A stretch of 37,895 bases of DNA from Vulcanimicrobiota bacterium. GTDB lineage: Bacteria; Vulcanimicrobiota; Vulcanimicrobiia; Vulcanimicrobiales; Vulcanimicrobiaceae. The translations under genes and the position numbers were made by a program. Positions 2,478 to 30,955 of the stretch are shown one piece after another. Where the stretch lies: contig DAIDGS010000179.1 of NCBI GenBank assembly GCA_027459845.1, positions 1-37,895 of the forward strand, given 5' to 3'. The stretch's first letter is position 1. Every line of letters starts with the position of its first letter. The notes under the pieces were generated by a model. It did not search any database, had not been told where the DNA came from, and saw only the letters and a list, made by a program, of their open reading frames with translations.

Positions 2478-2864
2478 GTGTCGCGTAAGAAGTCCTTGAT
2501 CCTCACCGATCACGAACTGCGATTGATGAACGTACTCTGGCTGCGCGGCCGGGCTACGGTCGCAGAGGTAGTCGAATCGCTGCCGCCGCCACCGCTTGCC
2601 TACAGCACCGTGCTCACGACGATGCGCACGCTCGAGCAGAAGGGCTACGTCGCGCATGACGAGGAGCGGCGAGCGTACATCTATCGTCCCGTCGTGGCTC
2701 GCGATCAGGCGGCAAAATCGGCGATGCATCACCTGCTCGGCCGCTTCTTCGGCAACTCGCCGGGTGCGCTCGCCGTCGCGTTGCTCGGCGAGGCGCCACT
2801 CAGCGATGCCGACGCCACCGAGATCGAGCGGATGCTGCAGCGCCGCAGAAAGGCTACGCCATGA
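2478..2864 (+). CDS. blaI: BlaI/MecI/CopY-family transcriptional repressor
   Basis: 128 residues, the usual length of the family. The N-terminal two-thirds is a winged helix with the family hallmarks: LTDHELRLMNVLW, then TVAEVVESL, then a recognition helix STVLTTMRTLEQKGYV. The C-terminal third is a dimerisation helix. In the family, a partner M56 metalloprotease cleaves the repressor to release DNA. GTG 2478 follows GGAGG at 2469-2473. The stop overlaps the start of the M56 gene (ATGA), so the two are translationally coupled. The regulated target may be only this operon or may include the upstream oxidase. No beta-lactamase is visible. Confidence 0.92.
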   Translation: MSRKKSLILTDHELRLMNVLWLRGRATVAEVVESLPPPPLAYSTVLTTMRTLEQKGYVAHDEERRAYIYRPVVARDQAAKSAMHHLLGRFFGNSPGALAVALLGEAPLSDADATEIERMLQRRRKATP

Positions 2865-4045
2865 TGGTGCAACTGATCGTCGATTCGCTCTGGCAGGGTG
2901 CGCTCGTGGTTGTCTTTGCGGCGCTCGTGACGGTGATGCTTCCCAAGCGCAGCGCCGCAACGCGCTACGCCGTGTGGTTCGTCGCACTGCTCGCACTACC
3001 GATCGTTCCGATACTGACGCTATGGCACCCAGCGCCGACCCCGGCGATCGCGCTCCCAGCGGCCGACGGCATGACGATGGCCACCGCGCTCTTTACCGCT
3101 AAGGCGGCACACGCCGGGACGACGATCGCGATCGTCTGGCTCTGCGGCTTCGCGTTCTCGCTGACACGGCTCGCCATCAGTTACGCGCGCATTCGTACGA
3201 TCGTTCGACGTGCGACTGCGGTGCCAAAGCTCGGGAACGACGTGCTGCTGTCGAACGAGGTGACGATTCCGATCGCCGTCGGCGTCGTTTCGCCTCGCAT
3301 CGTGATGCCGGCCGACCTGGTGCAGACGCTCGATCCGGTCGACCTGGAGATCATCCTGCGGCACGAACGCGCGCACATTCGCCGCGGCGACGTCGCGGGA
3401 AACTTCGTTCAACGCCTGATCGAATCGGCGCTCTTCTTTAATCCGTGGGTGTTTATCGTCGGCCGCCAACTCATCGTCGAACGCGAGGCCGCCTGCGACG
3501 ACCGGGCGATCTACTCGACGAACTACTCGAATCGATACGCCACATGCCTGGCGCAGCTCGCTTGCGGCGTGCGGCGCTCGCGTACGCCCCTGCTCACTCC
3601 CAGCGCGATCGGACCGCGGCATTTGATCGTGGACCGTATCGCGCGCCTCTTGAACGGAAAGGTTCCCCAGGTGAGAATCAACTACTTCGTGCTCGGCGCC
3701 AGCGCGGCGCTCTTTATTGCCCTTGGCCTCGCGCTCGGTACGCCGAGAGTCGTTTCGGCGACCACAAGCACGGCGGGAACGAAGTGCAATCACCCCGCCT
3801 CGGTTGTGACGCCCGCGGTGCCCGCTATCCCGACCTCGTTCCACGCCAACGGGTACGCGACGGCGCTCGTCAGCCTCGACCAAAACGGAAACGTGCTCGG
3901 CGTCAAGATTGCCCACTCCAGCGGATACGCCGTGCTCGACAACGCGACGCGGACGGCCGCGCTAAAGTCGACCTACGCACCCGCCGTAAAGCAATGCAAG
4001 CCAGTAGCGGGGCAATACCTCTTCAAAGTTAAGGCGCGGCCTTAA
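2861..4045 (+). CDS. BlaR1-like M56 membrane metalloprotease with a TonB-like C-terminal domain
   Basis: 394 residues. Membrane segments lie at about 11-27, 36-55, 87-107 and 276-293. The zinc protease motif HERAH is at 168-172 and the downstream EREAACDD at 207-214 supplies the third ligand, so the protease core looks intact. After the last membrane segment, the usual penicillin-binding sensor is absent. Residues ~312-394 instead look like a TonB C-terminal type domain (NGYATALVSLDQNGNVLGV and a late Cys-rich stretch). The expected role is to sense a signal outside the membrane and cleave the BlaI-like partner. The ligand is unknown and, from the missing domain, probably not a beta-lactam. 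Confidence 0.88.
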   Translation: MMVQLIVDSLWQGALVVVFAALVTVMLPKRSAATRYAVWFVALLALPIVPILTLWHPAPTPAIALPAADGMTMATALFTAKAAHAGTTIAIVWLCGFAFSLTRLAISYARIRTIVRRATAVPKLGNDVLLSNEVTIPIAVGVVSPRIVMPADLVQTLDPVDLEIILRHERAHIRRGDVAGNFVQRLIESALFFNPWVFIVGRQLIVEREAACDDRAIYSTNYSNRYATCLAQLACGVRRSRTPLLTPSAIGPRHLIVDRIARLLNGKVPQVRINYFVLGASAALFIALGLALGTPRVVSATTSTAGTKCNHPASVVTPAVPAIPTSFHANGYATALVSLDQNGNVLGVKIAHSSGYAVLDNATRTAALKSTYAPAVKQCKPVAGQYLFKVKARP

Positions 4046-16176: not shown

Positions 16177-17027
16177 GGCTTGACGGCGACCGGCGTGGCT
16201 TCGGTACGTGGTTCCGGCCGGCGCGCGCAGTAGACGATGCCGATGATGCCGATCGGGATCATCGGTAACGCATAGAGCTGCCCGCCGGTGATTCCATGCC
16301 ACACGAAGTCGGCGTGACGCCAAATTTCGGCCACGCTGCGCGTGATGCCGTAAATCGTGAACCACGACCAGGCGACCACGCCGTCCTTCGGCTTGGTGCG
16401 ATAGATCAGCAACAGCACCGGCAGCGTTAAGATATCCAGAATCGCTTCGTAGAGTTGCGCCGGATGGCGGTATGCCGCGCCCCAGATCGCGAGGTCGCCG
16501 GGACGATTGGGCACCATGCACCACGGGCGATCCGGTCGGCAGACGTCGCCCCACAACTCGTCGTTGATAAAGTTGACGATCCGCACCAGGGTGATCCCGA
16601 TCGGCAGCATCATCACGATTTCGTCGCCCAACACCATGTACTTCAGCGCCGGGTGCTTGCGGATGAAGAGCGCGACCGCAATCATCACGCCGACCAGACC
16701 GCCGTGGAAGGCCATGCCGCCGTTCCACACGGCGATCAAATTGAGCGGATTGCTGGTGTAGAACGCCAGGTCGTGCTTGCTGATGATGTCGTTGAAGACG
16801 AAGAACGTTCGCCCGCCGACCAGCACGCCGATCAGCGCGTAAAACAGAAAGTCTTGAATCTGCTCCGAGGTCAGCCCCAGCCGGCGACGCCCGGTCGGGC
16901 GGTTGAGCCACAGGTAGACGCAGACGAACCCCACCAGATAGGCGATGCCGTACCAGTGTATTTTGACCGGTCCCAACTGCAGGGCAATCGGAGAGACATT
17001 AGTCGGATAGGAGAACCAGTGGTGCAT
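16164..17027 (-). CDS. lgt: Prolipoprotein diacylglyceryl transferase
   Basis: 287 residues with about seven membrane segments. Family landmarks: KIHWYGIAYLVGF, the GGRTFFVFND region, NGGMAFHGG, the RIVNFINDELWG signature and RHPAQLYEA. It transfers diacylglycerol to the lipobox Cys of exported prolipoproteins. lspA, the next step of the same pathway, is in the divergent operon starting 45 bases away, so the two steps flank one promoter region. The start ATG 17027 is followed by a short HHWF N-terminus. Confidence 0.94.
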   Translation of the reverse strand: MHHWFSYPTNVSPIALQLGPVKIHWYGIAYLVGFVCVYLWLNRPTGRRRLGLTSEQIQDFLFYALIGVLVGGRTFFVFNDIISKHDLAFYTSNPLNLIAVWNGGMAFHGGLVGVMIAVALFIRKHPALKYMVLGDEIVMMLPIGITLVRIVNFINDELWGDVCRPDRPWCMVPNRPGDLAIWGAAYRHPAQLYEAILDILTLPVLLLIYRTKPKDGVVAWSWFTIYGITRSVAEIWRHADFVWHGITGGQLYALPMIPIGIIGIVYCARRPEPRTEATPVAVKPSST

Positions 17028-17071: not shown

Positions 17072-17803
17072 ATGACTTCGACGACGCACGTGACCGTCGG
17101 CATCGCCTTTCTCGCGGGCCTCGTTTCCTTCATTTCGCCGTGCGTCCTTCCGCTCGTGCCGGCCTACCTCTCGTTGCTCACCGGATCGAGCCTGGAGGAG
17201 CTGCGCGGCGGCGCGAGCGCGGGCATGCGCGCGCGCGCTATCGCCCACGCGCTCGCTTTCGTCGTCGGCTTCAGCCTGATCTTCATCGCGCTCGGCCTGG
17301 GCGCCAGCGCCGTCGGCGGCGTGCTGGCCGCCCACCGAACCCTGCTCGCGCAGATCGGCGGGATCGTGGTGATCGTCCTCGGCTTGCAGATGATGGGCAT
17401 GATCCGGCTGCCGTTTTTGCTCATGGACGCGCGGGTGCACGTGCAGCACGCCCGCCGCACCTACTGGTCGTCGCTGCTGGTCGGGATGGCCTTCGCGGCC
17501 GGGTGGTCGCCCTGTATCGGGCCGATCCTCGCCACGATCCTGGCCATCGCCTCGCAAGCGCGCACCGCCGAAGCGGCCGGGCTCTTAGCCGTCTACTCGG
17601 CCGGCTTGGCGGTGCCGTTTCTGCTGACCGCGGTCGCGATCGGCGCGATCTTGCCGCTGCTCGATCGCATCAAGCGCTTCCTTCCGGCCATCGAGTTCAC
17701 CGCCGGGGCGTTCTTGGTGGTCGTCGGGTTGGTACTCGTCAACGATGCATTCCTCAACGTCGCAGGATGGTTTTATCAGTTTGTCCCGCAGCCGCAACTC
17801 TAA
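17072..17803 (+). CDS. ccdA: Cytochrome c biogenesis protein CcdA (thiol-disulfide membrane transporter)
   Basis: 243 residues with six membrane segments and the two reactive cysteines in the family positions: SPCVLPLVPAYLSLLTG near the N-terminus and GWSPCIGPILATIL in the middle. It passes reducing equivalents from cytoplasmic thioredoxin to outward-facing thiol proteins. ATG 17072 is chosen, although GGAG is only one base upstream. GTG 17045 is an alternative with no better site. No ResB or CcmG partner is adjacent. It is the first gene of the plus-strand ccdA-lspA-rluD-tgt operon. Confidence 0.9.
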   Translation: MTSTTHVTVGIAFLAGLVSFISPCVLPLVPAYLSLLTGSSLEELRGGASAGMRARAIAHALAFVVGFSLIFIALGLGASAVGGVLAAHRTLLAQIGGIVVIVLGLQMMGMIRLPFLLMDARVHVQHARRTYWSSLLVGMAFAAGWSPCIGPILATILAIASQARTAEAAGLLAVYSAGLAVPFLLTAVAIGAILPLLDRIKRFLPAIEFTAGAFLVVVGLVLVNDAFLNVAGWFYQFVPQPQL

Positions 17804-27537: not shown

Positions 27538-27891
27538 TCACCGCACCAGCTGCGTGACGTCGTCGTTCGTCTTTCCGAGCCTCCGCGCCGTGGCGCCGGC
27601 ATAGAATCCGTATTTGCCGCGGATGTGCTCCCAGCCATGCTTGACGTCGTCGTAAACCCAGGCCACGCGCGACACCTTTCGGTTGCCCTCCTCGAAATCG
27701 ACGTAAAAGCAGCGCCCCTTATACGGACACCGATACTCATGCTCGGTGAGCCTGAGGGCCTTAGGGTCGACCGCCGAGGGATCGACGTACCAGTTGCCTT
27801 CAATTTCTTGAAAAGCCCCGGCATCGGCATCGACGATAATCCTGCCCGAGACCGCCTCGCGGATCACGAGGCGCGAAGGTTTGGTTGTCAT
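27538..27891 (-). CDS. DUF427-domain protein
   Basis: 117 residues. DUF427 pattern: RIIVDADAGAFQEIEGNWYVDPSAV, the core EHEYRCPYKGRCFYVDF, then VAWVYDDVKHGWEHIRGKYGFYAG. The CPYKG motif is the family signature. No biochemical function is established that I can name. ATG 27891 has only a weak ribosome site. It lies downstream of, and in the same direction as, the thioredoxin-CRP gene, about 96 bases away. Confidence 0.85.
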   Translation of the reverse strand: MTTKPSRLVIREAVSGRIIVDADAGAFQEIEGNWYVDPSAVDPKALRLTEHEYRCPYKGRCFYVDFEEGNRKVSRVAWVYDDVKHGWEHIRGKYGFYAGATARRLGKTNDDVTQLVR

Positions 27892-27987
27892 AACGTCACC
27901 ATACCATCGTAGGGTCTACCTCGCGCGGTGCGCGCGCTCACAGCCGATCGCTCGTCGACGTTCTCGTCGTGAGACCACTTTGCTCCA

Positions 27988-28992
27988 CTAGCCTTGGGCT
28001 CCAAGCACCTTTTGCAACACGCGGTCGAGAATCCCGGGCTCAAGACCGTCGGGGTCGACCACGAGGTAGCGCTCGTCGTCGAACGCGACGCTACCCGTCT
28101 TCTGGAGCTTTCCAAGCTCGATCGTACACGACTCTCGTGTGACGCCGATGAGCTGCGCGATCTCCTGATGCGAGAGCCTGATCGCGATGCGGATTTTCCC
28201 ATCGGGCAGCGGCTCGCCGTGCTCTCTGGCCAAATGTCGCAACACTACGAGCAACTTCGCCTTGACGGAACCGTAGGCCAAACCGGCAACACGCGTCTCC
28301 ATTTCGCTCCGGCGGCGCGCGATCTCGCCGGCAATCATCATCGTGAGTTGCGGCTTATGACCCATCAGCCGCGTGAAGTCATCGATCGACGCGGCGCAGA
28401 TGTGCGACGCCTCGAGCGTCTCGGCAAACGTCTGACGATGCGCTTCCTTAAACAACGCGAGCTCGCCAAAAATGTCGCCGGGTCCGAGGATCGCCAGGGT
28501 TAGCTCCTTGCCATCTTCGGTGAGGCGGTATAACCGCACGTGCCCGGTCTTCAATAAGTAGATCGCGTCGCCGAGGTCGCCTTCCGAAAATACGATCTCC
28601 TTTGACGGGAAGTCCTGTTCGCGGAAGAGGTGCGCATACTTCTCTACCTCGCCCGGTGGAACTCCGTGGAAGAGCCGGTTGTGCTGGAGGTACCACACCT
28701 TATTGGGCACGGGGGCTTGCTTCCCGAGCAGTTCCGCGAACACCCCTCGCAGGCGTTCCGCACTCGGTGTCCCCGTGAGGCGGCGCCCGTCGGGCAACAG
28801 CAACGTAGGCGTCACGGCGATCCTCACGCCGTCCGCGTCAGCTTGCGATCGCTCTCGGACGCGTAGATCGATGCCCTCGACGTTATCAAGTATCTCGCGC
28901 GCACGACGCCTGACGACCTGCGTGAAGTCGCACTCGCGGCATCCGTAGAGCGTCACGACGAGCGTATCGCGCTCGACTCGCGGCACCCCCAT
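27988..28992 (-). CDS. CRP/FNR-family regulator with an N-terminal thioredoxin-like CxxC domain
   Basis: 334 residues, about 100 longer than a normal CRP. Residues 1-~92 look like a compact thioredoxin/glutaredoxin fold: LVVTLYGCRECDF puts Cys18 and Cys21 in a CxxC, and VTPTLLLPDGRRLTG gives the cis-Pro (62) strand and a Gly turn. Residues ~100-215 are the cyclic-nucleotide-type sensor (FSEGDLGDAIYLLKTGHVRLYRL, GPGDIFGELALF). Residues ~265-310 are the helix-turn-helix (LSHQEIAQLIGVTRESCTIELGKLQ). This suggests DNA binding controlled by thiol redox state. ATG 28992, preceded by GGGA, starts one base after the stop of the upstream DUF427-like gene. The first CRP part has few Cys, so FNR-type iron-sulphur sensing looks unlikely. 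Confidence 0.85.
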   Translation of the reverse strand: MGVPRVERDTLVVTLYGCRECDFTQVVRRRAREILDNVEGIDLRVRERSQADADGVRIAVTPTLLLPDGRRLTGTPSAERLRGVFAELLGKQAPVPNKVWYLQHNRLFHGVPPGEVEKYAHLFREQDFPSKEIVFSEGDLGDAIYLLKTGHVRLYRLTEDGKELTLAILGPGDIFGELALFKEAHRQTFAETLEASHICAASIDDFTRLMGHKPQLTMMIAGEIARRRSEMETRVAGLAYGSVKAKLLVVLRHLAREHGEPLPDGKIRIAIRLSHQEIAQLIGVTRESCTIELGKLQKTGSVAFDDERYLVVDPDGLEPGILDRVLQKVLGAQG

Positions 28993-28993
28993 G

Positions 28994-29383
28994 CTAGGGT
29001 CCCAGCTCTTCGACGGCAAGAGACGGGTGCTGCTGTGGCACCGCAACGCGGTACCAGATGAATGGAAGCAGGGGATTCGGACACCAGTAGAGCCAGCCCA
29101 ACGCTTTTTCCCGTCGGCCACTTGGGAGTACGAGATCCATCCAAACGTAGAGAAATTTGTATATGCAGAAACCGGGAATGAAGCTTGGCTTAAACTGTCC
29201 CTTTAACGACGCTCGATGTATGTAATAGTTCCCCTCGAATGGCGTGATCGCCCAGCCGACTCTTCCCTCCGCAATCACGGTACCGCTCGCGCGATGCCGG
29301 ATGCGAATGTAGTGGTGCTTCGGTCGCGCCTGCGCTAAGGCGCTAGCCGCGCCTAGACCCGACATACAAGGCTCATCCGGCAT
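28994..29383 (-). CDS. DUF427-like protein coupled to the thioredoxin-CRP gene
   Basis: 129 residues. A DUF427-type core in a longer, more aromatic version: GTVIAEGRVGWAITPFEGNYYIHR, then FCIYKFLYVWMDL, then GWLYWCPNPLLPFIWYRVAVPQQHPSL. ATG 29383 follows AGGA with 7-base spacing. Its TAG is one base from the regulator's ATG, so translation is coupled. Function is unknown. Together with the second DUF427 gene it brackets the redox-type regulator. A different family with a similar core is possible. Confidence 0.72.
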   Translation of the reverse strand: MPDEPCMSGLGAASALAQARPKHHYIRIRHRASGTVIAEGRVGWAITPFEGNYYIHRASLKGQFKPSFIPGFCIYKFLYVWMDLVLPSGRREKALGWLYWCPNPLLPFIWYRVAVPQQHPSLAVEELGP

Positions 29384-29533: not shown

Positions 29534-30439
29534 TTACTGCTTGACGTTGACCGTCAGTACGGCCGGAGACACGCCCATCGTCGGCATGTGGTCGTTGTTG
29601 GCTAGCTGGACGATGATGGTCGCTTTACCGCTGCGCCACGTCGATAGGTCGATCGGTATCGTCTTCGTGCAGGGCATGCCGATCAGTCCCGGCTCGGCCA
29701 TCGTCATCATCGGCCGCATCTGGCTCATCGTCATATGTGACGCTTGCATGAATCGCTTGCCCATTGCCATTCCTTCGGGGGTGTTCATCAGCGCCATCAT
29801 CGGCGTCGCAGGATTGGCGCTGGTCTCGCCGATCTGCTTCACAAAGACGTGAATGTGCCCCCAGCCTCGGACATCCGGCTTACCTTCGAGAGCGCAAGAG
29901 AGCTTGAAGTTGCGCACGGCCAACACCAGATTGAACCGGGCGGGAACCGTCGCATCATTCGTTGGCGACACAATCGAAACCGAGGGTTTTCCCCCGATCG
30001 CCTGGGGTAGCGGGTTTGCGACTGCCGGACGATACACGAACGTGGTCATCGCGGGCAGGCTGTTCATGGCGTGCGTATCGTTGGCAAGCACTACCGCAAG
30101 CGTGTGCTTGCCGGGCTTGAGTCCTTGTCCCGAAATCGCAAAGCGATTGGAGCAAGCCACGGTGGTGAGATGGGGCATGTCCATGCCGTCGATCATCGCG
30201 TGCACGTGTCCCTCGCCCATCGGCGCGTTCGTTTTCCCCATATTTGCGCATTCGAGCTTGAAGTTTTTGACCGCAAGCCTGACCGGAATGCTTGCCCCGG
30301 TTACGGTCGCACCCATCGCCGGTGAGACGATCGAGACCGAGGGCGGAGCCATCATAGCGGCGATCGCGGGAACACCGAGCAGGCCGATGGCTAGCGTTGC
30401 GGTCAGGCTCGCGAGCCGCCGCATTCGAAGGTGGTTCAT
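29534..30439 (-). CDS. Secreted duplicated GHxH protein with a Met-rich loop (putative metal binding)
   Basis: 301 residues. A signal peptide (to about residue 28) precedes two copies of one beta-sandwich-like domain (33-138 and 152-299). Each opens PSVSIVSP and carries a GHxH motif (His78/His80; His195/His197) and a Cys pair (64/96; 182/257). The second copy has an insert with 13 Met between residues 214 and 255. Met and His clusters in exported proteins usually bind copper. This is inference, and the domain resembles DUF4399-type sequences only loosely. An AAGGAG lies 12 bases before ATG 30439. The DUF427/thioredoxin-CRP genes follow in the same direction after 150 bases. Confidence 0.75.
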   Translation of the reverse strand: MNHLRMRRLASLTATLAIGLLGVPAIAAMMAPPSVSIVSPAMGATVTGASIPVRLAVKNFKLECANMGKTNAPMGEGHVHAMIDGMDMPHLTTVACSNRFAISGQGLKPGKHTLAVVLANDTHAMNSLPAMTTFVYRPAVANPLPQAIGGKPSVSIVSPTNDATVPARFNLVLAVRNFKLSCALEGKPDVRGWGHIHVFVKQIGETSANPATPMMALMNTPEGMAMGKRFMQASHMTMSQMRPMMTMAEPGLIGMPCTKTIPIDLSTWRSGKATIIVQLANNDHMPTMGVSPAVLTVNVKQ

Positions 30440-30955
30440 AAAATGACGGGTCTCCTTGACAAAGTGGTGTGCCGCAAGGGTACCGCGCGCGACGCCGCCG
30501 CGCTGTGAGCCGGCTCACCACCGCGCATGCGCGCCGCTCCCGATCCGATGGCCGCCCCGATTGCCGCGCCGTCGCTCGGAGTCGGCACGTGCGTCCGCGG
30601 CAGGCGCGCCGACGTACCCGGCTCCAGGAGCGCGCCCTCGACAGTTGGGAGCTGCACGTCGTTCTTCGGCGCAGTAGCGACGGTCGTGCTTTTGGGAAGG
30701 CGCGATCGGCACCATGGTGAGAGGGGCGCAACTCGGCTGCGCGCTGACGGCGCCGTCACGCTCGCCGGTTGCTGGATTGCGTCGAGTTGCGTTAGCAAGG
30801 CAGGCAACGCGCTGCCTGCCCGCCGGCCGCGCCTACCCGCGCATAGCGCGCGCCGCGCTGCCGCGTCGAAGGGTGCTGCGGTGCGCAGCGATCTGGGCTG
30901 CGTTGGAGCACGAACGACGCGTGGTACGGCCCGGGAGCCGCCTCTCGAAGGAACG
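30440..30955 (-). other. 516-base gap without a supported gene
   Basis: No frame has both a ribosome site and a recognisable family. A minus-strand frame across 30436-30807 has an interesting end (PSDGAAIGAAIGSG, a glycine-zipper look) but runs into the next gene's start and has no ribosome site. A perfect 8-bp hairpin (30799-30806 with 30813-30820) lies downstream of the CPBP gene and may help end its transcript. Confidence 0.35.

Follow-up and report, generated by a model that had tools for sequence, protein, structure and literature searches.

What does a CRP-type regulator sense, and what does it control, when its N-terminus resembles thioredoxin? The question is raised by a locus of a Vulcanimicrobiota bacterium. 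The window, that is, the whole stretch of 37,895 nucleotides analysed here, is an entire contig (C179); the genome it comes from (labelled G000) measures 2.7 Mb and is split into 205 contigs, and the relatives retrieved by sequence are Candidatus Eremiobacterota MAGs. A sequence-only reading had described a thioredoxin-CRP fusion between two DUF427 genes and proposed a redox- or thiol-responsive regulator with DUF427 as its partner. The three open reading frames were confirmed, as was a one-base gap upstream of the regulator (the stop codon of P0003 ends at 28994 and the regulator ATG lies at 28992). The regulator comprises the following features:

27988-28992, minus strand: P0001, thioredoxin-fold/CRP fusion regulator of 334 amino acids (ATG at 28992, stop ending at 27988; cNMP_binding and HTH_Crp domains; aligned with 14 further full-length homologues)
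28705-28992, minus strand: monothiol thioredoxin-fold domain of P0001, residues 1-96 (alignment, profile search, AF2, Foldseek)
28939-28941, minus strand: Cys18, not conserved (homologue alignment)
28930-28932, minus strand: Cys21, invariant (homologue alignment)
28807-28809, minus strand: cis-Pro62, invariant (homologue alignment)
28363-28617, minus strand: CRP-type sensor, residues 126-210, with Cys199 (Pfam, alignment)
28039-28242, minus strand: Crp-type helix-turn-helix (HTH), residues 251-318 (Pfam, alignment)
28126-28128, minus strand: Cys289 in the recognition helix (homologue alignment)

P0001 is a genuine fusion of a thioredoxin fold with a CRP protein. A cNMP_binding sensor (PF00027, E 5.7e-23) is followed by a Crp-type HTH (HTH_Crp_2, PF13545, E 1.4e-11), as in the CRP/FNR superfamily, and the alignment with CRP proteins of the PDB (E down to 1.5e-26) spans the ligand pocket, with the sensor aligning normally with ligand-binding members. 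The first 96 residues alone match no Pfam family above cut-off. An AF2 model of residues 1-97, calculated from the window sequence and two relatives, has a pLDDT of 81 and a pTM of 0.71; the best Foldseek matches to it are mostly thioredoxins (probability ~1.0, query TM ~0.6), and a homologue profile of the N-terminus finds thioredoxins in the PDB (1nho, E 2e-4). The fusion proposed earlier is thus borne out by the structure prediction. The full-length AF2 model was discarded as too poor for interdomain contacts (pLDDT 47).

The fused regulator is present in 15 of 149 genomes of the phylum (Eremiobacterota), all from the class of the window; the phylum-wide search revealed none outside the class, and none was found on plasmids. 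A scan of genome contigs retrieved two fused relatives and one unfused. In a tree of the CRP parts, fused and unfused proteins form two separate groups (support for the fused group 100/100), and the linker NKVWYL and the domain boundaries are common to both. No earlier account of a thioredoxin-CRP fusion was found in a limited literature search. Judged from its sequence, P0001 is best read as a predicted transcription activator of the CRP/FNR superfamily with an N-terminal monothiol thioredoxin-fold input domain.

The N-terminal module had been described as a CxxC motif (Cys18/Cys21) with a cis-proline. Among the 15 distinct fused proteins aligned, Cys21, Phe23 and Pro62 are invariant, which upholds the cis-proline and one of the two cysteines. 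Cys18 occurs in the window protein only, with R, S, G, Q or A in every homologue, and CxxC is not a feature of the family. In the profile alignment Cys21 sits on the first cysteine of the thioredoxin CPYC motif (1nho), and the motif therefore reads C-x-F-[S/T], monothiol rather than CxxC. With its fold, its cis-proline and an active-site cysteine at helix 1, the domain belongs to the thioredoxin fold superfamily; assignment as a dithiol thioredoxin was rejected, because Cys18 is variable and x-F-[S/T] follows Cys21. The comparison with monothiol glutaredoxins finds C-x-F-[S/T] present and weak Pfam glutaredoxin matches only.

The only invariant cysteines of the fused proteins are Cys21, Cys199 and Cys289, each in a different domain. 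An iron-sulfur protein of the FNR type was also rejected, as an N-terminal cysteine cluster for [4Fe-4S] is missing and the invariant cysteines are spread over three domains. Cys199, in the sensor domain, is found in unfused relatives too; residue 289 is Cys in all fused proteins, and nine unfused relatives have Val or Ile at this position. The correlation between Cys289 and the thioredoxin-fold domain fits a thiol pair. It may also reflect a single evolutionary event, since both split the same two groups, and their joint presence could be historical and not functional.

The reading that we consider probable is that P0001 acts as a thiol-responsive activator of the class II type, with a small regulon that includes its own gene; here we infer both the signal and the redox chemistry. 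The thiol response proposed earlier is retained here as the best reading, and the dithiol CxxC model is given up. Alternatively, the thioredoxin-fold domain could be a structural or docking module, with activation by a small ligand in the CRP pocket and Cys21 kept for folding or packing. The single conserved cysteine of the domain and the normally aligning sensor would suit such a module, and unfused relatives with the same boundaries and NKVWYL linker must sense without a thioredoxin domain. We nevertheless regard it as unlikely, because Cys21 and the cis-proline are invariant amid variable surroundings, which is the pattern of an active site, and because Cys289 is invariant too, in the fused proteins only.

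Gene clustering identified MHP, and not DUF427, as the most conserved neighbour of the regulator homologues. This gene and the operator upstream of it had both been overlooked:

29534-30439, minus strand: MHP, secreted Met/His-rich protein with a duplicated domain (neighbour clustering, protein sequence)
30504-30519, minus strand: operator GGTGAGCCGGCTCACA with the 14-bp perfect palindrome GTGAGCCGGCTCAC, upstream of MHP (sequence match)
30477-30482, minus strand: predicted -10 element TACCCT of the MHP promoter, 21 nt after the operator, which places the operator centre at -41.5

MHP has four invariant cysteines, two GHxH motifs and 7-10% Met, and gave no match to PDB sequences. In seven genomes it precedes the regulator on the same strand with a gap of ~10 bp; P0003 lies between the two in the window genome only. 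Among 117 genomes of the class, the regulator is present in 15, MHP in 14 and both in 13 (Fisher p 2e-14, a value that treats genomes as unrelated). The gap between MHP and P0003 (29384-29533) contains a strong transcript hairpin with its stem around GAGTGAGCCGTTTC/GAAAGCGGCTCGCTC (z-score of the whole stretch -1.43), possibly an attenuator or terminator that lowers regulator expression in the window genome. With this hairpin and P0003 in between, co-transcription of MHP and the regulator in the window is uncertain.

SCO1 and TlpA-like genes are located in the regulator operons of G096 and G097. Close to MHP in G106, and close to the regulator in G038, there are P-type ATPases of the HMA type, in a set that includes an HMA protein and a MerR gene. 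In G108, DsbD_TM/TlpA-like genes adjoin MHP fragments. Because MHP is secreted and rich in Met, His and Cys, and SCO1, TlpA-like and copper-ATPase genes lie near some homologues, the regulon is suggested to serve the handling of copper or of thiols in the cell envelope. Elsewhere in the window, positions 17072-17800 encode a DsbD_TM/CcdA-type membrane protein, a possible electron route to envelope thiols, and positions 2478-4045 a Penicillinase_R (BlaI-type) repressor and, after it, an M56 (BlaR1-type) peptidase that carries a TonB_C domain.

The SCO1 and TlpA-like genes, the ATPases with their HMA and MerR companions, and the Met/His richness of MHP would also be compatible with a metal sensor that has Cys21 and Cys289 as its ligands for a soft metal (Cu(I), Hg(II) or Zn(II)). 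We find this doubtful: the metal genes are not conserved beside all homologues, the two cysteines are in separate domains, and neither a Cu(I)-sensor motif nor any other known metal-sensor motif was recognised in P0001. For the thiol-responsive activator that we prefer, the thiol or copper signal is likewise inferred, as the effector cannot be read from domain homology, from conserved cysteines or from neighbouring genes.

The upstream regions of MHP share the palindrome TGTRAG-N4-CTYACA, which is a CRP-type TGTRA-N6-TYACA site. Across the 2.7-Mb genome, TGTRAGNNNNCTYAC is matched exactly at one place only, the operator at 30504-30519. Of the 15 regulator genomes, 13 have operators 5' of MHP, of the regulator or of both (the window genome, G036-G040, G081, G082, G084-G087 and G096, the last with its site 5' of an SCO1-TlpA-regulator operon); in G097 and G106 they precede other genes, among which both genomes have one for the same type of membrane protein. 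In G106:C111 (L050/L138), a 4-kb stretch near the regulator contains four operator matches, which adjoin a radical-SAM gene, a STAS gene and a DUF1440-like membrane gene, a type that has an operator site in G097 too.

In all 16 MHP, regulator and SCO-operon promoters examined, TAnnnT starts 21-22 nt after the palindrome, which puts the operator centre near -41.5/-42.5, the position of a class II activator. By sequence, the system thus has a palindromic TGT-N10-ACA-type operator at the class II position, in line with the CRP/FNR superfamily. The regulator genes of G038-G040 look leaderless. One hundred Markov copies of the window contained ~0.05 core sites each, and none contained a core with a -10 element. 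With at most one mismatch, the genome has 22 strand matches at 16 places versus 16 strand matches for a reversed-pattern control; a larger regulon in the window genome was rejected on this account, such matches being barely commoner than in the control. Only three of the 16 places have promoter geometry, namely the MHP site, the P0002 site and one site on C188.

The site does not belong to fused proteins alone: genomes that lack the regulator contain the palindrome as well (at least one match in 36 of 88 such genomes of the family). In one case, near 16641-16667 of G028:C175 (L013), it lies immediately upstream of an unfused CRP relative, and given this site the operator preference may be older than the fusion. 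G037 has the operator with TATACT at exactly 21 nt twice, at 1530-1545 of G037:C16 (L130) and at 1434-1449 of G037:C26 (L131); the genes downstream encode secreted paralogues of 67-70 amino acids, possible further members of the regulon.

The fixed distance to the -10 element could also mean promoter occlusion, with the regulator repressing MHP: repression is possible for auto-regulatory CRP/FNR proteins, and the operator could overlie the -35 region. A centre at -41.5/-42.5, a fixed TAnnnT spacing and no obvious -35 hexamer, across divergent promoters, are instead the layout of a class II activator, and we judge repression improbable. Activation, as preferred here, would extend to the DUF427 genes through the following features:

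27538-27891, minus strand: P0002, DUF427 (PF04248) gene (Pfam)
28994-29383, minus strand: P0003, divergent DUF427-like gene (BLAST, overlap with PF04248 hits)
27927-27942, minus strand: degenerate operator TGTGAGCGCGCGCACC with one core mismatch, upstream of P0002 (sequence match)
27898-27903, minus strand: predicted -10 element TATGGT of P0002, 23 nt after the degenerate operator and 6 nt before the ATG (leaderless)

P0002 scores 55.9 bits against PF04248 (gathering cut-off 22.1). P0003 stays below the cut-off in Pfam and has no NCBIfam match; its hits in relatives overlap PF04248 hits, and BLAST relates it to P0002 orthologues (E ~1e-6 to 1e-7, in a small sequence set). Pfam membership of P0003 was rejected, and the relationship is through BLAST only. 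The pair of flanking DUF427 genes described earlier is therefore one member and one divergent relative, in an arrangement peculiar to the window genome. A neighbourhood survey found DUF427 next to the regulator in no other regulator genome, and several have no DUF427 at all. DUF427 is not a syntenic partner, and the narrow claim would fail on the terms that the sequence-only reading had set itself, namely that homologues have neither the CxxC nor a link to DUF427.

A functional partnership loses its support from synteny and gains some from operators. P0002 orthologues of a related genus, 56-62% identical (G082, G084 and G087), lie on other contigs than the regulator and have the operator intact, with TAnnnT at 20-21 nt and the ATG ~6-7 nt later (leaderless). 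Within one mismatch, the degenerate site of P0002 has no leaderless counterpart elsewhere in the window; it deviates in one core position and in its spacing of 23 versus 21-22 nt. G080 (69% complete; regulator not found) has an operator site upstream of its DUF427 gene too, and the DUF427 genes of G038, G039 and G096 have none in the stretch fetched. Taken together, the link between DUF427 and the regulator appears to be supported through operators and not through synteny. That the regulator is a dithiol CxxC switch and DUF427 its partner by conserved synteny, as C18-x-x-C21 and the two DUF427-type genes of the window might suggest, has hardly any probability left, with Cys18 missing from all homologues and DUF427 beside the regulator in no other genome.

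We hypothesize that the thiol-responsive activator works as follows. A P0001 dimer most likely binds TGTRAG-N4-CTYACA palindromes centred ~41.5-43.5 bp upstream of the predicted starts and, at this class II position, would drive a small regulon that includes its own gene. In the window genome, this regulon would consist of the MHP-P0003-regulator transcription unit and of P0002, whose leaderless promoter would be the weaker one. At the N-terminal end of helix 1, Cys21 would be the point of reaction for an oxidant, for a low-molecular-weight thiol or persulfide, or for a soft metal such as Cu(I). Its state would control DNA binding, possibly via exchange with the recognition-helix residue Cys289. 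As MHP and the neighbouring genes suggest, the output would be the handling of copper or thiols in the envelope. We tentatively speculate that a one-cysteine thioredoxin-fold sensor gates CRP-type DNA binding by thiol exchange with the recognition-helix cysteine, and so ties DUF427, a widespread domain, to an envelope response to thiol or copper stress. If true, thiols would be sensed here by a thioredoxin-fold domain that, cut down to one reactive cysteine, is built into a CRP-family activator and matched by a cysteine in the DNA-reading helix. It would also provide a concrete regulon (operator, promoters and targets) for an almost unstudied phylum, and a testable context for DUF427 proteins and for a new secreted Met/His-rich family.

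Comparison with known systems places these elements. The DUF427 family (PF04248), with P0002 as member and P0003 as divergent relative, is without assigned function and is tied here to a regulator via operators; its domain has a beta-tent fold like MsrB, minus the zinc site (PMC4287342). No function was found in the literature on DUF427 and DUF4399, and hits on glutamine synthetase were set aside, as they concerned DUF4278. Like members of the thioredoxin/glutaredoxin family (1nho, 1fo5; monothiol glutaredoxins), P0001 has the beta-alpha-beta-beta-beta-alpha order, a cis-proline and a cysteine at the nucleophilic position that starts helix 1; unlike them, it has C-x-F-[S/T] for CxxC, is fused to a transcription factor and has no sequence match to the family above Pfam cut-offs. 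With E. coli CRP at class II promoters and M. tuberculosis CRP (3d0s), it shares the sensor and HTH, an R-E-[ST] recognition helix and a TGTGA-N6-TCACA-type palindrome at the class II position, and it differs from them in the extra N-terminal thioredoxin-fold domain, the recognition-helix cysteine and a tiny local regulon. Precedents for oxidation-controlled CRP/FNR activators are CprK and FixK2, with a thioredoxin-fold domain described in neither. In CprK of Desulfitobacterium hafniense, oxidation in vitro leads to an interdomain Cys11-Cys200' disulfide and loss of DNA binding (PMC12937710, PMC5487381), and a physiological role of this disulfide is not supported (PMC12937710); in FixK2 of Bradyrhizobium, binding is lost upon oxidation of C183 near the DNA (PMC9104804). 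In the CRP-family activator PrfA of Listeria, the thiol state is set in trans by TrxA or glutathione (PMC5487381), whereas in P0001 the resolving cysteine is missing and the thioredoxin-fold domain is built in.
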